Shown: positions 26,901 through 34,072 of the stretch, in pieces | How positions within the stretch are numbered: the stretch's first letter is position 1 | Layout: each line of letters opens with the position of its first letter | Assembly (NCBI GenBank): GCA_021785405.1 | Contig: JAJYFF010000022.1 | Location: 1 to 41,702 of the forward strand | Source of the DNA: Pseudomonadota bacterium | GTDB taxonomy: Bacteria; Pseudomonadota; Gammaproteobacteria; Steroidobacterales; Steroidobacteraceae | Length of the DNA stretch: 41,702 nucleotides | Direction: 5' to 3' | Program-made: the position numbers and the translations under genes | The notes under the pieces: generated by a model | What the model was told of the DNA's origin: nothing | The model's database searches: none | What the model saw: only the letters and a program-made list of their open reading frames with translations

Positions 26901-26985
26901 GCCCCGCGGCCTGAATCGGTCGAAATGCTAGACTGACCGCGCATACCGTTTCGGGCATCGCAGCATCGTGTCGAGGAGGCCGTGC

Positions 26986-27843
26986 ATGACGGACCGATCG
27001 CGAATGATCCGGCTCGCGCGGCGCCCGTTCGCAGTGCTTGCGCGGCGCGCGTTCGCAGTGCTCGCGCTGGGTGGCCTGCTCGTGGCCGGCGTCGCCGTCG
27101 CGACGGTGCCGGTGCCACCGCGGAGCGGCCGGGTGGTCGACCTGACCGGGACCTTGTCCGGTGCGACGGTCGCGCGGGTCGAGCAACGCCTGGCCGCATT
27201 CGAGGCCCGCAAGGGCCACCGGATCACGGTGTTGATGGTGCCGACGACGCAGCCCGAGGGCATCGTGCCATTCGGGCTCCGCGTCGCTGCCGCGTGGCAG
27301 CTCGACCGCCCGGGCGCCGGCGACGGCGCGATCCTGATCATCGCGAAGAACGACCGCCGGGCCCGCATCGAAGTCGGTGACCGGCTCGCGGGCGTATTGC
27401 CGGCCGCGATCGCGAACCGGATCGTGAGCGATACGATCGCCCCGCATTTTCAGGCCGGTGACTTCGACGGTGGCGTCGAGGCCGGGGTCGCGCGGATGAT
27501 CGCGGTGATCAATGGCGAACCCTTGCCGCCGCCCGATCGGCGCTGGACGGCCGGGCACCACCGCGGGCTGCAGCGACTGCTCCCGCTGCTCCTGGTGCTG
27601 GTGTTGGTCGGCGCTTGGGCGCTGGACGCGCTGGTGGGCCGCCTGCTGGGGTCGATCGTGACCGGCGGTCTGGTCGGCGCGCTCGCGTGGGGCTCGAGTC
27701 ACTGGCTCCTGGTCGGCGTCGGCGCCGGCGTGCTGGCATTCGGCTTCGCGCTGCGGCTCGGCGCGGGATCCGCCGGCGCGAGCGGCGCCGGTGACCCTGG
27801 GGACGGCGGCGGCGTCGGCGGCGCCTCGGGGAATTGGGGATGA
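26986..27843 (+). CDS. TPM-domain membrane protein (YgcG type)
   Basis: A 285-aa exported membrane protein. A signal peptide (hydrophobic about residues 20-37) precedes a TPM domain (about 45-180; VVDLTGTLSGATVARVEQRL, DGAILIIAKNDRRARIEVGD), then hydrophobic segments (about 195-260) and a Gly/Ala-rich tail. TPM domains have been tied to acid phosphatase activity and photosystem II assembly; bacterial YgcG-type proteins are of unknown role. The ATG has a GGAGG site 8 bases upstream; the GTG at 26968 is a weaker choice. A -10-like TAGACT at 26930 lies upstream. It overlaps the next gene by 4 bases. Confidence 0.88.
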   Translation: MTDRSRMIRLARRPFAVLARRAFAVLALGGLLVAGVAVATVPVPPRSGRVVDLTGTLSGATVARVEQRLAAFEARKGHRITVLMVPTTQPEGIVPFGLRVAAAWQLDRPGAGDGAILIIAKNDRRARIEVGDRLAGVLPAAIANRIVSDTIAPHFQAGDFDGGVEAGVARMIAVINGEPLPPPDRRWTAGHHRGLQRLLPLLLVLVLVGAWALDALVGRLLGSIVTGGLVGALAWGSSHWLLVGVGAGVLAFGFALRLGAGSAGASGAGDPGDGGGVGGASGNWG

Positions 27844-28349
27844 CCGTCGCCCGTTGGATCAGGCCATTGCTCACGCCCCCCTGGCGGATCCGCCTCGCGT
27901 TCTCCCAGCGGACGCTCGCGGCGATCGAGGCGGCGATCGCGCGGGTCGAGCCCAGCCATACCGGCCGTATCCGCTTCGCGGTCGAGACGGCGGTGCCGTC
28001 GGCGTCCCGGTGGCGTCGGGCGTCGTCCCGGACGCGCGCGCTGGAGGCTTTTTCGTCGCTGCGCGTCTGGGATACGGAACGGAACAACGGCGTGCTGATC
28101 TATGTTCTGTGGGCCGAGCGCCGGCTCGAGATCGTCGCGGACCGTGGGTTCGGCCAGCGGGTGCGACCGTCGGAGTGGGAGGCGGTCTGCCGGTTGATCG
28201 AGGGGTACTTCCGTGAGGGGCGGTTTCGGGACGGCGCGATCGCCGGAATCGACGCGGTGGGGGCGTTGTTGGCGCGCCATTACCCATCGGCCGAGGCGTC
28301 GGCCGGGCGAACGGCGACCGAGCGGCCCGGCCAGCCGGCATTGCTATGA
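27840..28349 (+). CDS. Second TPM-domain protein, short form
   Basis: A 169-aa protein with a TPM domain of the compact type (RTLAAIEAAIARVEPSHTGR, NNGVLIYVLWAERRLEIVADRG, AGIDAVGALLARHYP). It has no signal peptide and is probably on the cytosolic side. The ATG overlaps the first TPM gene by 4 bases (ATGA). In many proteobacteria such a pair follows lemA; no lemA is present upstream here. Confidence 0.88.
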   Translation: MTVARWIRPLLTPPWRIRLAFSQRTLAAIEAAIARVEPSHTGRIRFAVETAVPSASRWRRASSRTRALEAFSSLRVWDTERNNGVLIYVLWAERRLEIVADRGFGQRVRPSEWEAVCRLIEGYFREGRFRDGAIAGIDAVGALLARHYPSAEASAGRTATERPGQPALL

Positions 28350-28371: not shown

Positions 28372-28437
28372 ATGGTTCTTGAGGGTTTCGTTCGTGTGCA
28401 GCTCGCCACAGGTCCATCGATTGCAACGCCACCGCCC

Positions 28438-29676
28438 ATGAATTCGCCGAACAGAGTCGTGTCGCCGCTGAGCCGAGTCCTCGTGATCCTGATCGCGAGT
28501 GCGAGCGTGGGAGCCTGTTCGCTGTTTCGGCCGCCGCCTGCGGGAGGTGAGGGTGCCGCCGTCGCGCCGGCCGCGCCCGCCCCGGCGCCCGCCCCGACCT
28601 TGCCGACCCCGGTCGCGCTCGACCACTTCGTGCTCAAGGGTCCGTCCGACGACGTCGTCGGCTACGTCCAGCGGACCACGATCGGCCCGCACGACACGTT
28701 GTCGGACGTCGCGCGCCGTTTCGACGTCGGTTACGACGAGATCACACTCGCGAATCCCGGCGTCGATCCGTGGCTGCCCGGCGTCGGCCGCGTGGTCGTC
28801 GTGCCGACACAGTTCGTGCTGCCGGAGGCGCCGCATCGCGGGGTCGTGATCAATCTCGCGGCAATGCGGATCTTCTATTTTCCGCCGCATCGCCGGGGCC
28901 GGCCGCAGATCGTCTATACCCATCCGATCGGCATCGGGCGGGTGGCCTGGAAGACGCCCGAAGGGACGACGCGGATCATCGGCCGGCAGAAGAATCCGGT
29001 GTGGATCGTGCCGAAGTCGATCCGCGCGGAGCACGCGAAGGAAGGCGACCCGCTGCCCGCGGTCGTGCCCGCGGGCGACGACAATCCGCTCGGCAAATAT
29101 CTGTTCCAGCTCGGCTGGCCGGGTTATCTGATCCACGGCACCGACAAGCCCTACGGCGTCGGGATGCGGGTGAGCCACGGGTGCATGCATCTGTACCCGG
29201 AGGACATCAAGCAGTTCTTCCACATGATCCCGATCGGCACCAAGGTCACCGTCGTCAATCAGCCGTACGTGTTCGGCTGGCATCACGGTCGCCTGGTCAT
29301 GGAGGCGTTCCGGCCGCTGAAAGGCTACCGACGGTTGAACTGGACCGCGGAGCGGCGCCAGATGCTGCAGCGTGCGCTGCATACGCCGGCGGGCCGCGCG
29401 GCGATCCGGCGCGGCTTGCGGATCGATTGGGGGCGGGTGATCGCGATGGTGCACTCGCCACGGGGCCTGCCGGTCACGATCGGCCAGCACACGCCCGGCG
29501 TCGACGCGGTCATCGCGCAGGCGCCGCTCGTCGCCGACACGGTGCCGAAGGGTTCGAACTGGGACGGCGTCGTGCAGCTGTCGATCAGCACCCAGACCTA
29601 CGATGAGTTGACCGGCGTCGGCGCGCCGCCCAAGAAGGCGCCGCCCCCCGCGGCGACGCCCCCATCGGGACATTGA
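28438..29676 (+). CDS. L,D-transpeptidase (YkuD/ErfK type) lipoprotein with LysM-like region
   Basis: A 412-aa envelope enzyme expected to form 3-3 peptidoglycan crosslinks or attach lipoprotein to peptidoglycan. The N-terminus is a lipoprotein signal (hydrophobic about residues 13-25, lipobox VGAC), then an Ala/Pro linker, a LysM-like region (about 70-125; GPHDTLSDVARRFDV) and the YkuD domain (about 135-285). The catalytic block is SHGCMHLYPEDI with C249; the position after the Cys-hydrophobic pair, usually Arg, is His251. The C-terminal 120 residues are an extension. Another ATG at 28372 would move the signal 22 residues inward. Its TGA overlaps the next start. Confidence 0.9.
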   Translation: MNSPNRVVSPLSRVLVILIASASVGACSLFRPPPAGGEGAAVAPAAPAPAPAPTLPTPVALDHFVLKGPSDDVVGYVQRTTIGPHDTLSDVARRFDVGYDEITLANPGVDPWLPGVGRVVVVPTQFVLPEAPHRGVVINLAAMRIFYFPPHRRGRPQIVYTHPIGIGRVAWKTPEGTTRIIGRQKNPVWIVPKSIRAEHAKEGDPLPAVVPAGDDNPLGKYLFQLGWPGYLIHGTDKPYGVGMRVSHGCMHLYPEDIKQFFHMIPIGTKVTVVNQPYVFGWHHGRLVMEAFRPLKGYRRLNWTAERRQMLQRALHTPAGRAAIRRGLRIDWGRVIAMVHSPRGLPVTIGQHTPGVDAVIAQAPLVADTVPKGSNWDGVVQLSISTQTYDELTGVGAPPKKAPPPAATPPSGH

Positions 29677-31604
29677 GTCCACGGCGCGCAGGCGGCATCG
29701 CCGCCTTCGCGCTGCTCGTCAGCCCCGCGCTGTCGGCACGTGGCGTCGCGCCGGTCGAGCGCTCCTACGCGAATCTCGACGCGTTCCGGGTCACGCGGGT
29801 CGCGCTCGATCTCGACGCCGACTTCGTCGCGCAGCAGCTGCGCGGCACCGCGGTGCTGACGGTGCGCCGGCGGGATCCGTCGGCCAGTCACCTGGTGCTC
29901 GACACCCGCGGCTTGCGCATCCTGGAGGTCGCCGAGCTGACGCGGGCGACCTACGGCGCGCCGGAGACGCTCGCGCCGTTCTGGGTCAGCCGGCCGTTTC
30001 GGCTCGGCGTCCCGGACCCGACCAACGGCACGGCGCTGATCATCGACGTACCGCGCCGGGATGCGACCCAAGAATCGTTCCGGATCGAATACGAGACCTC
30101 GCCCCACGGACCGGGCTTGAACTGGACCACCGCGCGAGCGGGCGGTCACGGCGCACGGGTGTTCTACGCGCTGTCGCAGCCGTACGGCGCGCGCGGCTGG
30201 ATCCCGTTGCAGGACAGCCCGCGGGCGCGCGTGCGCGTGGTGCTGCACCTGCGGACGCCGTCCGACATGGTCGCGCTGCTCAGCGACGCCGGCGATCCGG
30301 GCGCCAAGTCGCCGTTCGCACCGACCTCGAAGCGCACGGCCGAGCACGCGCTGCGCACGCGGCGCGCGCTCGCGCCGTCGCAGCTCGACCTGGTCGTCGG
30401 CGATCTGAAATTCGCGCCGATCGACGCGCGCGCGGGCGTCTACGCGGCGGGGTGGACCGCCCACGGTCCGGCGCGCGCATTGCGCGACTATCCGGCGGTG
30501 CGCGCGGCCGGCGACCGCTTGCTCGGCGTGAGCGACGGCGCGCGGCGGGATTTCGTGATGATGCCCGCCGCCTTTCCGTTCCGCGCGGTCGCGACGCCGG
30601 GTCTCAGCCTGCTGTCGCCGACGCTGTTCGAGCGCACGCGCGATCCGGTGCCGCTCGCGGCGCGGTTGCCGTTCGCGGACGCCGAGGATGCCCTCGAGCC
30701 CGCGACCCGTGCCGACGCGTGGATCGGTTGGGCGTTCGCGGCCTACGCGCAGAGCCGCGTCGCGGCCGAACTGGCCGGCGCGCCGAACGCCGCGGCCCTC
30801 GACACGCTCGCCTATGTCGAGCAGCGTGCAGCGCTCGCGAACTCGCCACCGCTCGAGCGCCTGTGCGCCGGCCGCGCGGCCGGGCCGGGCGGGTGCGCCG
30901 GCGCGGGCCGCCTCGCGCAGGCGAAGGGGCGGCTGTTCTTCGCGACGCTCGCCGCGAGCGTCGGCCGAGCGCGGTTCGACGAGTTCGCGCGGCGCTGGTT
31001 CGCGGCTGCCGCGGGGCGGCCGGTCGACACCGCGGGCTTCGAGCACTTCCTCGCGAATCGGTTGATCGATCCGAACCGCCCCTCGGTCCGCCGCGCGGAC
31101 CTCGACGAGTGGCTGCACGACCCGGGCGTGCCGAGCGCCGTCGCACTGCCCGACGCGGCGCCGCTGCGCGCGGTCGACGCGGTGCGCTCGGCGTGGCTCG
31201 CGGGCCGGGTGCGCACCGCGGCGCTCGGCGCGCGCCACTGGTCCGAGCCGCAGTGGCGGTATTTCCTCGAGGGCCTGTCCGCGCAAGTCGGCGCCGCACG
31301 GCTCGCGCAGCTCGACGCGGCGTATCGTCCGATGCACGTGCTGCCGCCGCACGCGCAGAGCGCGTGGTTGCGGCTCGCGATCGAGAACCGGTATCCGCGC
31401 GGCACCGCGGCCGCGGCCGCGTACCTCGAGGCCGGCGGACGGCTCGATCTGCTCGCGCCGATCTATGCGGCGCTCGCGGCCTCGCCGGCCGACGCCGCGC
31501 TCGCGCGGCGGGTGTATTCCCACGCGCGAGCCGGCTATGATCCGCTCGCCGCGGCGCGCATCGGCGCGATCGTCGGTCGGGATCCCGCGGAGCGGACGAA
31601 ATGA
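29673..31604 (+). CDS. Leukotriene A4 hydrolase/M1 aminopeptidase homologue lacking the zinc site (pseudoenzyme)
   Basis: A 643-aa exported protein aligning along its length with LTA4-hydrolase-type M1 aminopeptidases: N-terminal beta domain (VALDLDADFVAQQLRGTAVL, FYALSQPYGARGWIPLQDSP), a central catalytic-like domain (about 255-440) and the C-terminal helical domain (about 540-640; WLRLAIENRYPRG, LLAPIYAAL). Where active members have GGMEN, HExxH-X18-E, it reads AVAT, A330-R-L-P-F334 and W353, so all zinc ligands and the catalytic Glu are lost. No other HExxH exists in the protein. The TTG start overlaps the transpeptidase stop by 4 bases. Probably a binding or scaffold protein in the envelope. 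Confidence 0.85.
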   Translation: MSPRRAGGIAAFALLVSPALSARGVAPVERSYANLDAFRVTRVALDLDADFVAQQLRGTAVLTVRRRDPSASHLVLDTRGLRILEVAELTRATYGAPETLAPFWVSRPFRLGVPDPTNGTALIIDVPRRDATQESFRIEYETSPHGPGLNWTTARAGGHGARVFYALSQPYGARGWIPLQDSPRARVRVVLHLRTPSDMVALLSDAGDPGAKSPFAPTSKRTAEHALRTRRALAPSQLDLVVGDLKFAPIDARAGVYAAGWTAHGPARALRDYPAVRAAGDRLLGVSDGARRDFVMMPAAFPFRAVATPGLSLLSPTLFERTRDPVPLAARLPFADAEDALEPATRADAWIGWAFAAYAQSRVAAELAGAPNAAALDTLAYVEQRAALANSPPLERLCAGRAAGPGGCAGAGRLAQAKGRLFFATLAASVGRARFDEFARRWFAAAAGRPVDTAGFEHFLANRLIDPNRPSVRRADLDEWLHDPGVPSAVALPDAAPLRAVDAVRSAWLAGRVRTAALGARHWSEPQWRYFLEGLSAQVGAARLAQLDAAYRPMHVLPPHAQSAWLRLAIENRYPRGTAAAAAYLEAGGRLDLLAPIYAALAASPADAALARRVYSHARAGYDPLAAARIGAIVGRDPAERTK

Positions 31605-31738
31605 TCAGCGAGTGGATGAGAATCATGCTCGACGAGATGGCGCGCAAGAAGGCCGAGGCCGAGGCCGCGCGACTCGAACGAGACCGTCGGCTCGAGGAGC
31701 GGCCGCAGCGGCGCGACGAACAGCGGTCGAAGGGATGA
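31601..31738 (+). CDS. 45-aa highly charged small protein between pseudo-peptidase and rhomboid genes
   Basis: It starts MISEWMRIMLDEMARKKAEA and continues with an almost uninterrupted charged helix (AARLERDRRLEERPQRRDEQ, then RSKG). Its ATG overlaps the upstream stop (ATGA) and its own TGA overlaps the rhomboid ATG in the same way. This exact double overlap argues for a real, translationally coupled gene. The Met-rich amphipathic N-terminus may lie along the membrane. No family recognised. It is short enough that gene finders may skip it. Confidence 0.65.
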   Translation: MISEWMRIMLDEMARKKAEAEAARLERDRRLEERPQRRDEQRSKG

Positions 31739-32415
31739 TCCCGCTCCAGGACGACAGCCGGTCGTCCTCCAGACCCTACGCCACCGTCGGCTTGATCGCG
31801 GCGTGTTTCGCGGTCTTCCTGTGGCAATCCTCGCTGGACGCGCCGGCCGCGCGCCGCGCGGTCGATGCCCTCGGCGCGATTCCCGCCGTCGTGTTCGGCG
31901 TCGCGCGGCTGCCGTCGGACCTCGTCTGGGTCCCGCGCTACGTGCCGGTCCTCACCTCGATGTTCCTGCACGCGAGCTGGATGCACTTGCTCGGCAACGT
32001 GCTCTTCCTGTGGATCTTCGGCGCGTCCGTCGAGGACTACATGGGCCCGCTGCGGTTCCTCGTGTTCTACCTCGGTTGCGGGATCGCGGCGTTCCTCGCG
32101 CAAGGCCTGGCGACGCCGGACTCGGCCTATCCGATCATCGGTGCGAGCGGCGCGATCTCCGGCGTCCTCGGCGCGTATTTCGTCACGTTCCCGCGCGCGC
32201 GCGTGCTCACCCTCGTGATATTGCCGTTCTTCCTGACGACGATGCGCGTGCCCGCGATGCTGCTGCTGTTGCTCTGGTTCCTCGTGCAACTCGTGAGCCA
32301 CTTCGCCGGTCACGACGGCGGCGTCGCGTTCCTCGCGCACATCGGCGGGTTCGTCACCGGGATCGCGCTCGCGCCGAGATTCAAGCGCCGCGATGGCGGC
32401 CTCCCGGCGTTGTGA
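31735..32415 (+). CDS. Rhomboid family intramembrane serine protease
   Basis: A 226-aa inner-membrane protease with about six hydrophobic segments. The catalytic dyad is S138 in GASGAISG and H202 in FLAHIGGFVTG. The conserved LHASWMHLLGNVLFL block after the first loop is present. It should cut substrates within the membrane near their lumenal end. Coupled by ATGA to the 45-aa gene and through it to the pseudo-aminopeptidase and L,D-transpeptidase genes, so an envelope-quality or regulated-processing role is plausible. Confidence 0.93.
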   Translation: MIPLQDDSRSSSRPYATVGLIAACFAVFLWQSSLDAPAARRAVDALGAIPAVVFGVARLPSDLVWVPRYVPVLTSMFLHASWMHLLGNVLFLWIFGASVEDYMGPLRFLVFYLGCGIAAFLAQGLATPDSAYPIIGASGAISGVLGAYFVTFPRARVLTLVILPFFLTTMRVPAMLLLLLWFLVQLVSHFAGHDGGVAFLAHIGGFVTGIALAPRFKRRDGGLPAL

Positions 32416-32455: not shown

Positions 32456-34072
32456 ATGTCGAGTGACCCGAGTCCACGGCTCGGCGAGGAGCGCAGCCCG
32501 CAACCGTCGATCACGCGCCTGCCGACCGGCCGGACCGCCTTCGTCGGCCGCACCTTGCGCGGGCCGGTCGACCAGCCCGTGCGGATCGCGGGCTTCGCGC
32601 AGTTCCAGAGCGTGTTCGGCGGCCTGTGGCAACCGAGCCCGCTCGGCTATGCGGTCGAGCAGTTCTTCGACAACGGCGGCCGCGAGGCGATCGTCGTCCG
32701 GGTCGCGAACGGCGCGCGCGGCGCGACCGTGACCCTGCCGACCGGCGATGGCCGCCGCCTCGAGCTGCGCGCGCTGCGTCCGGGCACCCGCGAATTCCTG
32801 CGGGTCTGCATCGACTACGACAACCTGCCGGCGGGCGACGCCGACGGGTTCAACCTCACCATCCAGCGCGTGCGTGCGCAGGGCTCGCTGCACGTCGAGG
32901 ATCAGGAAATCCACCGGCGGCTGTCGGTACGCGCGGCCGACGGGCCGCGCTTCGTGACCGCGGCGCTCGCGCGCTCGGCGCTCGTGCGCGTCGTCGGGGC
33001 GCCGCCGGACGTGCGGCCGGCGCGCACGATCGACGCCGACAGCGGTCTCGCGACCGGTTGGATCGGCTCGAACGCGGACGGCGACGACGGCGCGCCCTTG
33101 ACCGATTACGACCTGATCGGCAGCGAAACCGAACGGACCGGCCTGTTCGCGCTCGCCGACGCCGAACCGTTCGACCTGCTGTACGTGCCGCCGCTCGCCC
33201 GCGACCGGGACGTCGGGCTCGCGACCTGCCTGGTCGCCGAGCGATTCTGCCGCGGCCGCCGCGCGCTGCTGATCGTCGATCCGCCGCAAGCCTGGCAGAC
33301 CGCGGACGACGCGATCGAGGGATTCGAGGCCTGGGGATTCCAGAGCGAGAACGCGACGATGTTCTTCCCGCGCGTGCTCGCCTACGACAAGCTGCGCGGG
33401 CGCTTCGAGACGTTCGCGCCGGGCGGCGCGGTCGCCGGCATGCTCGCCCGCCGCGACGCGCGGATGCCGCCGTGGGAGGAATCGGAGGAGAGCGTCGAAC
33501 CGGTGCTCCGGCCGGGTTACAAGCCGGCTTGCCAGGTCACCGAGTCGCAGCGCGTGCGGCTGCGCACCCACGGCGTGAACGCGCTGCTGTCGCTGCGTCC
33601 GACGCAGCGCCGGCTGGAGCGGCCGCGCACGCTCGCCGCGGGGAGCGTCGCGGATTTCCGCTACCTCGCGCCGCGCCGGGCGAACTCGTACCTCTTGAAC
33701 TGCCTCGTGCACGGTACGCGCTGGGCGGCGACCGCCGAACCCGGCCCGGACGCGTTCGCGACGGTCGAAGCGCAGGTGCGCGAATTCCTCGGCGATCTGT
33801 ATCGCCGCGGCGCGTTCCCGGGCCGCGGACCGGACGAGGCGTACTTCGTCGTCTGCGACGAGAGCCTGAATCCCCGCACCGCCGGGCCGGGGCTGCGGTT
33901 CCTCGTGGGACTCGCGGCGGCGCGCGCCGGTGAGTTCCACACCTACCGGATCGCGCAGACGCCGGCCGGCGGCGACGCGCAACCCGTGACCGTGAATCGC
34001 TGGCGCGAGGCGCGCTTCAGCCCCGAGCAGATCGAATGGGTCGATCGTCTCGCGAGCCGTCTCGAGGGCTGA
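32456..34072 (+). CDS. Orphan contractile tail-sheath-like protein
   Basis: A 538-aa protein resembling sheaths of contractile phage tails and extracellular contractile injection systems. The N-terminal domain has TGRTAFVGRTLRGPVDQPVR, FAQFQSVFGGLW and LGYAVEQFFDNGGREAIVVR. The C-terminal domain has VNALLSLRPTQRRLERPRTL, HGTRWAATAEPG and AYFVVCDESLNPRTAGPGLR, then AGEFHTYRIAQ. The usual N-terminal PGVYxEE arm that links sheath subunits is absent; the protein begins MSSDPSPRLGEERSPQPSIT. No tube, baseplate, spike, cap or ATPase gene lies nearby. Composition matches the neighbours, so it is not a recent arrival. Function unknown. Confidence 0.85.
   Translation: MSSDPSPRLGEERSPQPSITRLPTGRTAFVGRTLRGPVDQPVRIAGFAQFQSVFGGLWQPSPLGYAVEQFFDNGGREAIVVRVANGARGATVTLPTGDGRRLELRALRPGTREFLRVCIDYDNLPAGDADGFNLTIQRVRAQGSLHVEDQEIHRRLSVRAADGPRFVTAALARSALVRVVGAPPDVRPARTIDADSGLATGWIGSNADGDDGAPLTDYDLIGSETERTGLFALADAEPFDLLYVPPLARDRDVGLATCLVAERFCRGRRALLIVDPPQAWQTADDAIEGFEAWGFQSENATMFFPRVLAYDKLRGRFETFAPGGAVAGMLARRDARMPPWEESEESVEPVLRPGYKPACQVTESQRVRLRTHGVNALLSLRPTQRRLERPRTLAAGSVADFRYLAPRRANSYLLNCLVHGTRWAATAEPGPDAFATVEAQVREFLGDLYRRGAFPGRGPDEAYFVVCDESLNPRTAGPGLRFLVGLAAARAGEFHTYRIAQTPAGGDAQPVTVNRWREARFSPEQIEWVDRLASRLEG

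Follow-up and report, generated by a model that had tools for sequence, protein, structure and literature searches.

We analyzed a 41,702-nucleotide window, contig C16 (GC 71%) of a Steroidobacteraceae genome of 2.92 Mb (133 contigs, 96% complete), and found in it a 643-residue homologue of the M1 aminopeptidases, of the leukotriene A4 hydrolase (LTA4H) type, in which the whole zinc site has been replaced. Our best explanation, which we hold with a probability of about 0.6, is that a functional exported LTA4H-type aminopeptidase became this pseudoenzyme in place, its fold having been retained for a non-catalytic role in the cell envelope. Half of the genus still has the metal site at this locus, and all family homologues read elsewhere have it too. 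The sequences indicate that the fold, itself a prediction, has been kept under purifying selection after catalysis was shed. Single-copy orthologues appear to change in place into non-enzymes, while their gene neighbourhood stays fixed, and half of the genus lies on each side of the change; if this is true, intact and inactive orthologues at one locus provide a ready-made experiment for separating a catalytic from a non-catalytic role.

The protein belongs to the LTA4H branch of M1, with phmmer E values of 4.3e-60 against the structure 3CIA and 4.9e-23 against human LTA4H, and with a match of 46.2 bits (cut-off 27) to the LTA4H C-terminal domain (Pfam Leuk-A4-hydro_C, PF09127). These matches and the open frame agree with an earlier note on this DNA, which had read 29673-31604 as an M1, LTA4H-like homologue. 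The M1 N-terminal domain (PF17900) scores 20.8 bits, below its cut-off of 25.8; the NCBIfam equivalog TIGR02411 shows full-length homology (E 7.6e-34), yet reaches 117.4 bits against a cut-off of 761.7; and the catalytic profile PF01433 (Peptidase_M1) gives no match to the protein at E up to 1. The predicted structure contains the three-domain LTA4H fold and preserves the fold surrounding the cleft, with the former zinc helix broken into two pieces (residues 328-331 and 335-340). The alignment behind this model drew on 51 loci, out of 52 tried from the 80 named ones. By its zinc site, its GGMEN motif, PF01433 and the TIGR02411 cut-off the protein would not count as an M1 enzyme; by its fold and PF09127 it is a member of the structural superfamily.

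Residue equivalences were taken from alignment to orthologues, and are given in window protein numbering with LTA4H numbers in brackets. The zinc and catalytic positions are occupied by A330 (H295), R331 (E296), F334 (H299) and W353 (E318), and the window protein contains no HExxH in any register. Orthologue alignment thus bears out, with a register uncertain by one, the four substitutions that the earlier note had placed at the HExxH-X18-E positions, as well as its replacement of GGMEN (by AVAT; RAVAT over aligned residues 304-308). Its description of the active-site region as aligning without gaps has to be corrected: the window clade carries a one-residue deletion relative to intact orthologues. 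Because phmmer places this deletion at the first His and MAFFT a few residues earlier, the exact residue replacement is uncertain by one. The same alteration, at 78-82% identity to the window, is found in four more contigs from three other metagenome-assembled genomes (MAGs; REEB287, BP8.bin24 and, twice, ZJ5.bin5), which rules out the assembly error across 30640-30740 that the earlier note had raised against itself. The two M1 contigs of the ZJ5.bin5 MAG (G022; contig C223, L039), at 78 and 82% identity to the window, may come from two related strains binned together.

The M1 gene was found in 22 of 23 genomes of the genus; G008 (81% complete) has no M1 match, and its sole transpeptidase match lies at the end of an 8.3-kb contig without other query genes. 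HExxH...E is kept in half of the 22 (hereafter intact: G001, G003, G007, G009, G010, G013, G014, G017, G018, G020 and G021, with the GGMEN variants GGQEN in G003 and AGMEN in G014) and lost in the other 11 (hereafter lost: G000, G019, G015, G022, G012, G002, G005, G016, G011, G004 and G006). Outside the genus, 30 family genomes match, and all 29 that were read have GGMEN and HEHE; of 582 named loci, the best 80 comprise 74 with HEHE and six contigs of the window's own genus. The earlier note had held that an intact HExxH in sister genomes would tell against it. Such genomes exist at the level of the genus and not among the six nearest, and an intact motif at this locus in 11 of 22 shows a transition from enzyme to pseudoenzyme rather than refuting the pseudoenzyme. 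The replacement residues vary by lineage (A-R-F/D-x in the window clade, Y-A-Y-E in G016, A/S-A-D-E in G011 and G004, D-A-H-E in G006), and partial stages are seen: G006 keeps one His and the Glu, and G001 keeps the zinc site with the Tyr gone. Together with the even division of the genus, these stages make other roles of an M1 enzyme directly testable. G001 (L125), with an intact zinc motif and Cys at the Tyr383 position, is possibly an early stage of loss.

To quantify constraint, we used the ratio of nonsynonymous to synonymous substitution rates (dN/dS, omega), which is 0.127-0.145 (dS 0.56-0.96) when four distinct window-clade sequences are compared in six pairs. This range leaves out pairs whose dS is close to zero (G015-G022) and any other pair involving G022, which is almost a copy of G015; the saturated pairs G000-G012 and G011-G004 were not used for omega. 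The transpeptidase gives 0.062-0.129 in the same six pairs. By domain, omega in the window group is 0.074-0.083 (N-terminal), 0.168-0.202 (catalytic) and 0.133-0.171 (C-terminal), and the former site segment (residues 295-360) is still constrained (0.064-0.114). Five intact pairs have their highest conservation in the catalytic domain, and three window-group pairs have their lowest there. None of the 11 lost frames contains an internal stop (two are cut by a contig end), and the gene is retained at identities as low as 46-57% within the clade. Homology to an enzyme, loss of the catalytic residues and purifying selection would together qualify the protein as a pseudoenzyme, and the low omega and open frames favor the earlier note's view of selection for a non-catalytic role, not decay.

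The rates do change upon loss. A codon branch model (our own code, linked-gene topology, 21 rows, G022 left out) gave omega values for M1 of 0.084 on intact branches, 0.152 on loss branches and 0.167 after loss, with twice the log-likelihood difference (2dlnL) at 69.6; 2dlnL is 2.2 for the transpeptidase and 6.8 for the DUF2586-like gene (0.101/0.079/0.122). Because distant dS is near saturation, these contrasts weigh more than the values. Such an approximate doubling of rates might be expected if the enzyme gene were slowly decaying in small-genome lineages and had yet to acquire frameshifts, and after completeness correction the 11 lost genomes are all smaller than the 11 intact ones (2.77-3.94 versus 4.12-5.86 Mb). 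However, the size link comes down to one or two independent pairs, small-genome relatives outside the genus (for example G126 and G236) keep the zinc site, and the omega of the window clade at substantial dS, the absence of internal stops in all 11 lost frames and the retention at 46-57% identity all speak against decay, which we regard as very unlikely.

If the fold is selected, what is it selected for? One answer, in line with the peptide- or glycan-binding scaffold of the earlier note, is that the old cleft goes on capturing peptides or glycan stems, the protein acting much as a receptor or chaperone does; yeast Tma108 offers a comparison. The surviving fold around the cleft in the model, the constraint on segment 295-360, the fixation of A330, R331, P333 and A335 over four divergent lineages of the clade, and R590 (R563), retained in all ten lost proteins that cover the position, are consistent with this idea. 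However, the Glu position that anchors the peptide N-terminus (E271) is changed in 11 of 11 lost proteins (mildly in G016, with Asp, and G006, with Gln), and the position of the carboxylate-binding Lys (K565) holds a basic residue in all but one of 19 intact rows (the exception, G017, has Leu) and a non-basic one in all ten lost rows covered. The Tyr383 position is altered in nine of the 11 lost proteins (Tyr in G012 and G002) and in G001, counted as intact. These changes at the anchoring positions speak against a peptide trap of the type usual in the family, and peptide binding in that manner is not supported. The former zinc helix is also split in the model, and Tma108 itself keeps HExxH-E and lacks one substrate-binding residue, as far as the review that tabulates it goes (PMC11266112). 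We consider capture in the old cleft doubtful.

We favor instead the envelope pseudoenzyme, in which the ancestral enzyme would already have served the cell envelope in a further, non-catalytic capacity, most probably as a scaffold that binds proteins. Catalysis would then have been shed in several lineages, the fold being preserved for its surfaces. The N-terminal residues, judged by eye, make an export signal likely, in keeping with the exported protein of the earlier note. In the window group the strongest constraint falls on the N-terminal beta domain, and gene order makes the adjacent L,D-transpeptidase the leading candidate partner. The transpeptidase adjoins M1 in all 20 genus genomes examined, with its SHGC motif in each, and in 13 of 29 family homologues outside the genus, many of the others being located elsewhere or having short flanks. 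Of the partnerships suggested in the earlier note, that with the transpeptidase thus has synteny in its favor and nothing beyond gene order, and that with the rhomboid is weak, the latter gene standing at eight of nine lost loci and at only three of nine intact ones (complete intervals, uncorrected for kinship).

Two further ideas were rejected. A regulatory subunit of an active M1 twin is unlikely in the window genome, G015 or G005, where no other M1 domain is recognisable (PF01433 finds nothing in the whole window genome at E up to 0.001). Neither a gene duplicate nor an active twin being recognisable in the window genome, the retained function would be carried by the protein alone. Loss of peptide uptake as the cause is contradicted by PF00854, present in 22 of the 23 genus genomes, the sole one without it being the intact G013. 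A new catalytic activity or metal site might be read from 13 sites that are conserved among intact proteins and have switched and become fixed in four lineages of the window clade (clade A). However, the 13 include no switch to His or Cys and a single one to an acidic residue (D239), in a search limited to sites conserved in intact proteins, and we judge a new activity highly improbable.

The number of losses depends on the tree. The linked-gene background (11 linked genes without M1, 27 rows) rejects, by the approximately unbiased test (p-AU), a single clade of all lost species (0.0003), the same clade without G006 (0.0006), G016+G011+G004+G006 (0.0002) and the window clade with G016 (0.014), and does not reject G006+G011+G004 (0.16). 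Four unlinked genes (ValS, IleS, LeuS and RpoB; 26 rows, 4139 patchy columns) reject one clade of all lost species (0.001), the same clade minus G006 (0.03) and the grouping seen in the M1 tree (0.001), whereas joining the window clade to G016 (0.06) or to G011 and G004 (0.13) is not rejected; the constrained searches were quicker than the free one, which can overstate rejection. G021 and G013 were left out of both backgrounds. Without regain, the background trees would imply three or four losses, or two if the p-AU of 0.03 is set aside, and the M1 tree fewer; unordered parsimony on the linked tree counts three changes because it permits regains. A bolder generalization, that in this family the exported LTA4H-type aminopeptidases have long served the envelope without catalysis, in connection with the adjacent L,D-transpeptidase, and that this older role outweighs peptide cutting, with catalysis shed independently three to four times in one genus, in place and without duplication, is tentative, and we would not rely on it.

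Several observations weigh against the favored reading. The confident structure model was built on an alignment of mostly intact relatives, and a model from the seven lost sequences only is uninformative (pLDDT 48.9, pTM 0.31). The two upstream genes (26968-28349) also have raised omega after loss (0.146 and 0.187; 2dlnL 35.8 and 24.2), not on loss branches, so the rise is M1-specific only in part. Our confidence is slightly lowered because the changed domain ranking is absent from deeper lost pairs (N-terminal/catalytic/C-terminal 0.57/0.56/0.57 for G000-G012 and 0.61/0.53/0.48 for G011-G004). Another M1-domain protein is present in G019, G022 and G012. Finally, the M1 tree, computed with active-site columns removed and without G013, the fragments of G021 and G013 and the second G022 copy, joins clade A, G016, G011 and G004, the lost lineages except G006, with G001, giving two changes; the M1 data do not reject one lost clade (p-AU 0.18-0.20) and do reject the background order (0.002 with well-supported clades only; 0.02 with the rest of the genus as one clade).

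This conflict suggests a different history, compatible with the envelope pseudoenzyme: the site may have been lost once or twice, the altered or intact allele then moving between species by replacement of the M1 gene alone. The M1 grouping, the failure of the transpeptidase to reject it (0.35) and the intermediate-like G001 fit such a history. Long-branch attraction is expected in the M1 tree because the lost lineages are long branches; yet G001 joins clade A at support 100 even with clade A as the sole lost lineage, so that gene exchange or shared ancestral weakening is possible beyond a long-branch effect. Against replacement, the DUF2586-like gene (p 0.004), like the four unlinked genes, rejects the M1-like grouping, and the replacement residues differ among lineages; single neighbours are mostly undecided. 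Replacement is a possibility we take seriously without thinking it probable.

Pseudoenzymes as a kind, and inactive M1 folds in eukaryotes, are known; what is probably new here is a change that took place within one bacterial genus, in situ in a single-copy gene and probably more than once. The cold-active aminopeptidase of Colwellia psychrerythraea (3CIA, LTA4H-type M1) has GGMEN, HELAHSW and NEGF, all gone from the window protein, which differs from human leukotriene A4 hydrolase/aminopeptidase in lacking the zinc site and in its E271, Y383 and K565 positions. TAF2, a subunit of the eukaryotic transcription factor TFIID that is not known to be a recent orthologue of an active enzyme, has a degenerate M1 fold serving as a scaffold; the window protein has a weak phmmer match to Taf2 (E 0.15 over 60 residues). 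Tma108, the single M1 pseudopeptidase in the table of one review, is alike in being an M1 member thought to act without catalysis, but is eukaryotic, binds nascent chains at the ribosome and retains HExxH-E according to Table 2 of that review, which opens with the usual explanation of pseudoenzymes by a duplication that leaves an active copy (PMC11266112). The Bacillus rhomboid YqgP, another protease from bacteria, also acts as an adaptor independently of catalysis, and such a second role has been proposed as a route to pseudoproteases (PMC7231995), but it belongs to an unrelated family and retains catalysis. A literature search on M1 pseudopeptidases or LTA4H pseudoenzymes, its broader part covered incompletely, returned nothing beyond the review.

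Table 1. Features of the locus in window coordinates.
Feature	Position	Strand	Evidence
M1/LTA4H-fold pseudoenzyme, 643 aa	29673..31604	+	ORF call, Pfam/phmmer homology, structure model
Likely export signal in about the first 27 residues, with an Arg pair, a hydrophobic run and small residues	29673..29753	+	read by eye; low-confidence tail in structure model
Former GGMEN exopeptidase motif, now RAVAT (residues 304-308)	30582..30596	+	alignment
Former HExxH, now A-R-L-P-F (residues 330-334); one-residue deletion in or just before motif versus intact orthologues	30660..30674	+	alignments, helix split in model
Third zinc ligand position (formerly Glu), W353 here; clade relatives have Glu, Arg, Gln or Pro	30729..30731	+	alignment
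Former Tyr383 position, now Q416; Tyr retained in 2/11 lost proteins (G012, G002)	30918..30920	+	alignment
C-domain carboxylate site: R590 retained (LTA4H R563), D592 replaces Lys (K565)	31440..31448	+	alignment
Two small upstream genes	26968-27843 (Psb32-like, below cut-off) and 27834-28349	+	homology search
L,D-transpeptidase (YkuD; LysM just under cut-off), SHGC motif; stop overlaps pseudoenzyme start	28372..29676	+	profile match
Conserved 45-aa ORF (MISEWMRIMLDEMARKK...), ATGA overlap with pseudoenzyme stop	31601..31738	+	tblastn, frame reading
Rhomboid protease, GASG motif; start overlaps small ORF stop; optional among relatives	31735..32415	+	profile match
DUF2586-like protein	32456-34072	+	Pfam match below cut-off, no NCBIfam match

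The genes around the pseudoenzyme (Table 1) are closely packed: its TTG start overlaps the transpeptidase stop by four bases, its stop overlaps a 45-codon open reading frame (ORF), and the stop of that ORF overlaps the rhomboid start at 31735. Rfam has no match anywhere in the window. Locus order was compared in larger stretches from 19 other genus genomes and G026, with G021 and G013, on short contigs, left out. Wherever the query genes are found their order is constant: two small genes (no match in the G012 and G016 loci), transpeptidase, M1, small ORF, rhomboid and DUF2586-like gene. The DUF2586-like gene, whose product we take to be phage tail sheath-like, neighbours M1 in every genus locus with a contig extending that far. 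The small ORF, with the pattern M-x-S-E-W-M-K/R-x-M-L-E/D-E-I/M, has tblastn matches in 16 of 20 loci, the four misses being two contig ends and two loci where the ORF was recovered from the reading frame; we know of no name for such a protein. In G014 (L129; a 71%-complete MAG) the transpeptidase gene, which stands beside an intact M1 gene, is split over two reading frames. The GxSG motif of the rhomboid was not found in G011. Between the small ORF and the DUF2586-like gene the rhomboid is present in some genus genomes and absent from others, and G014 has a short, remnant-like match to it.
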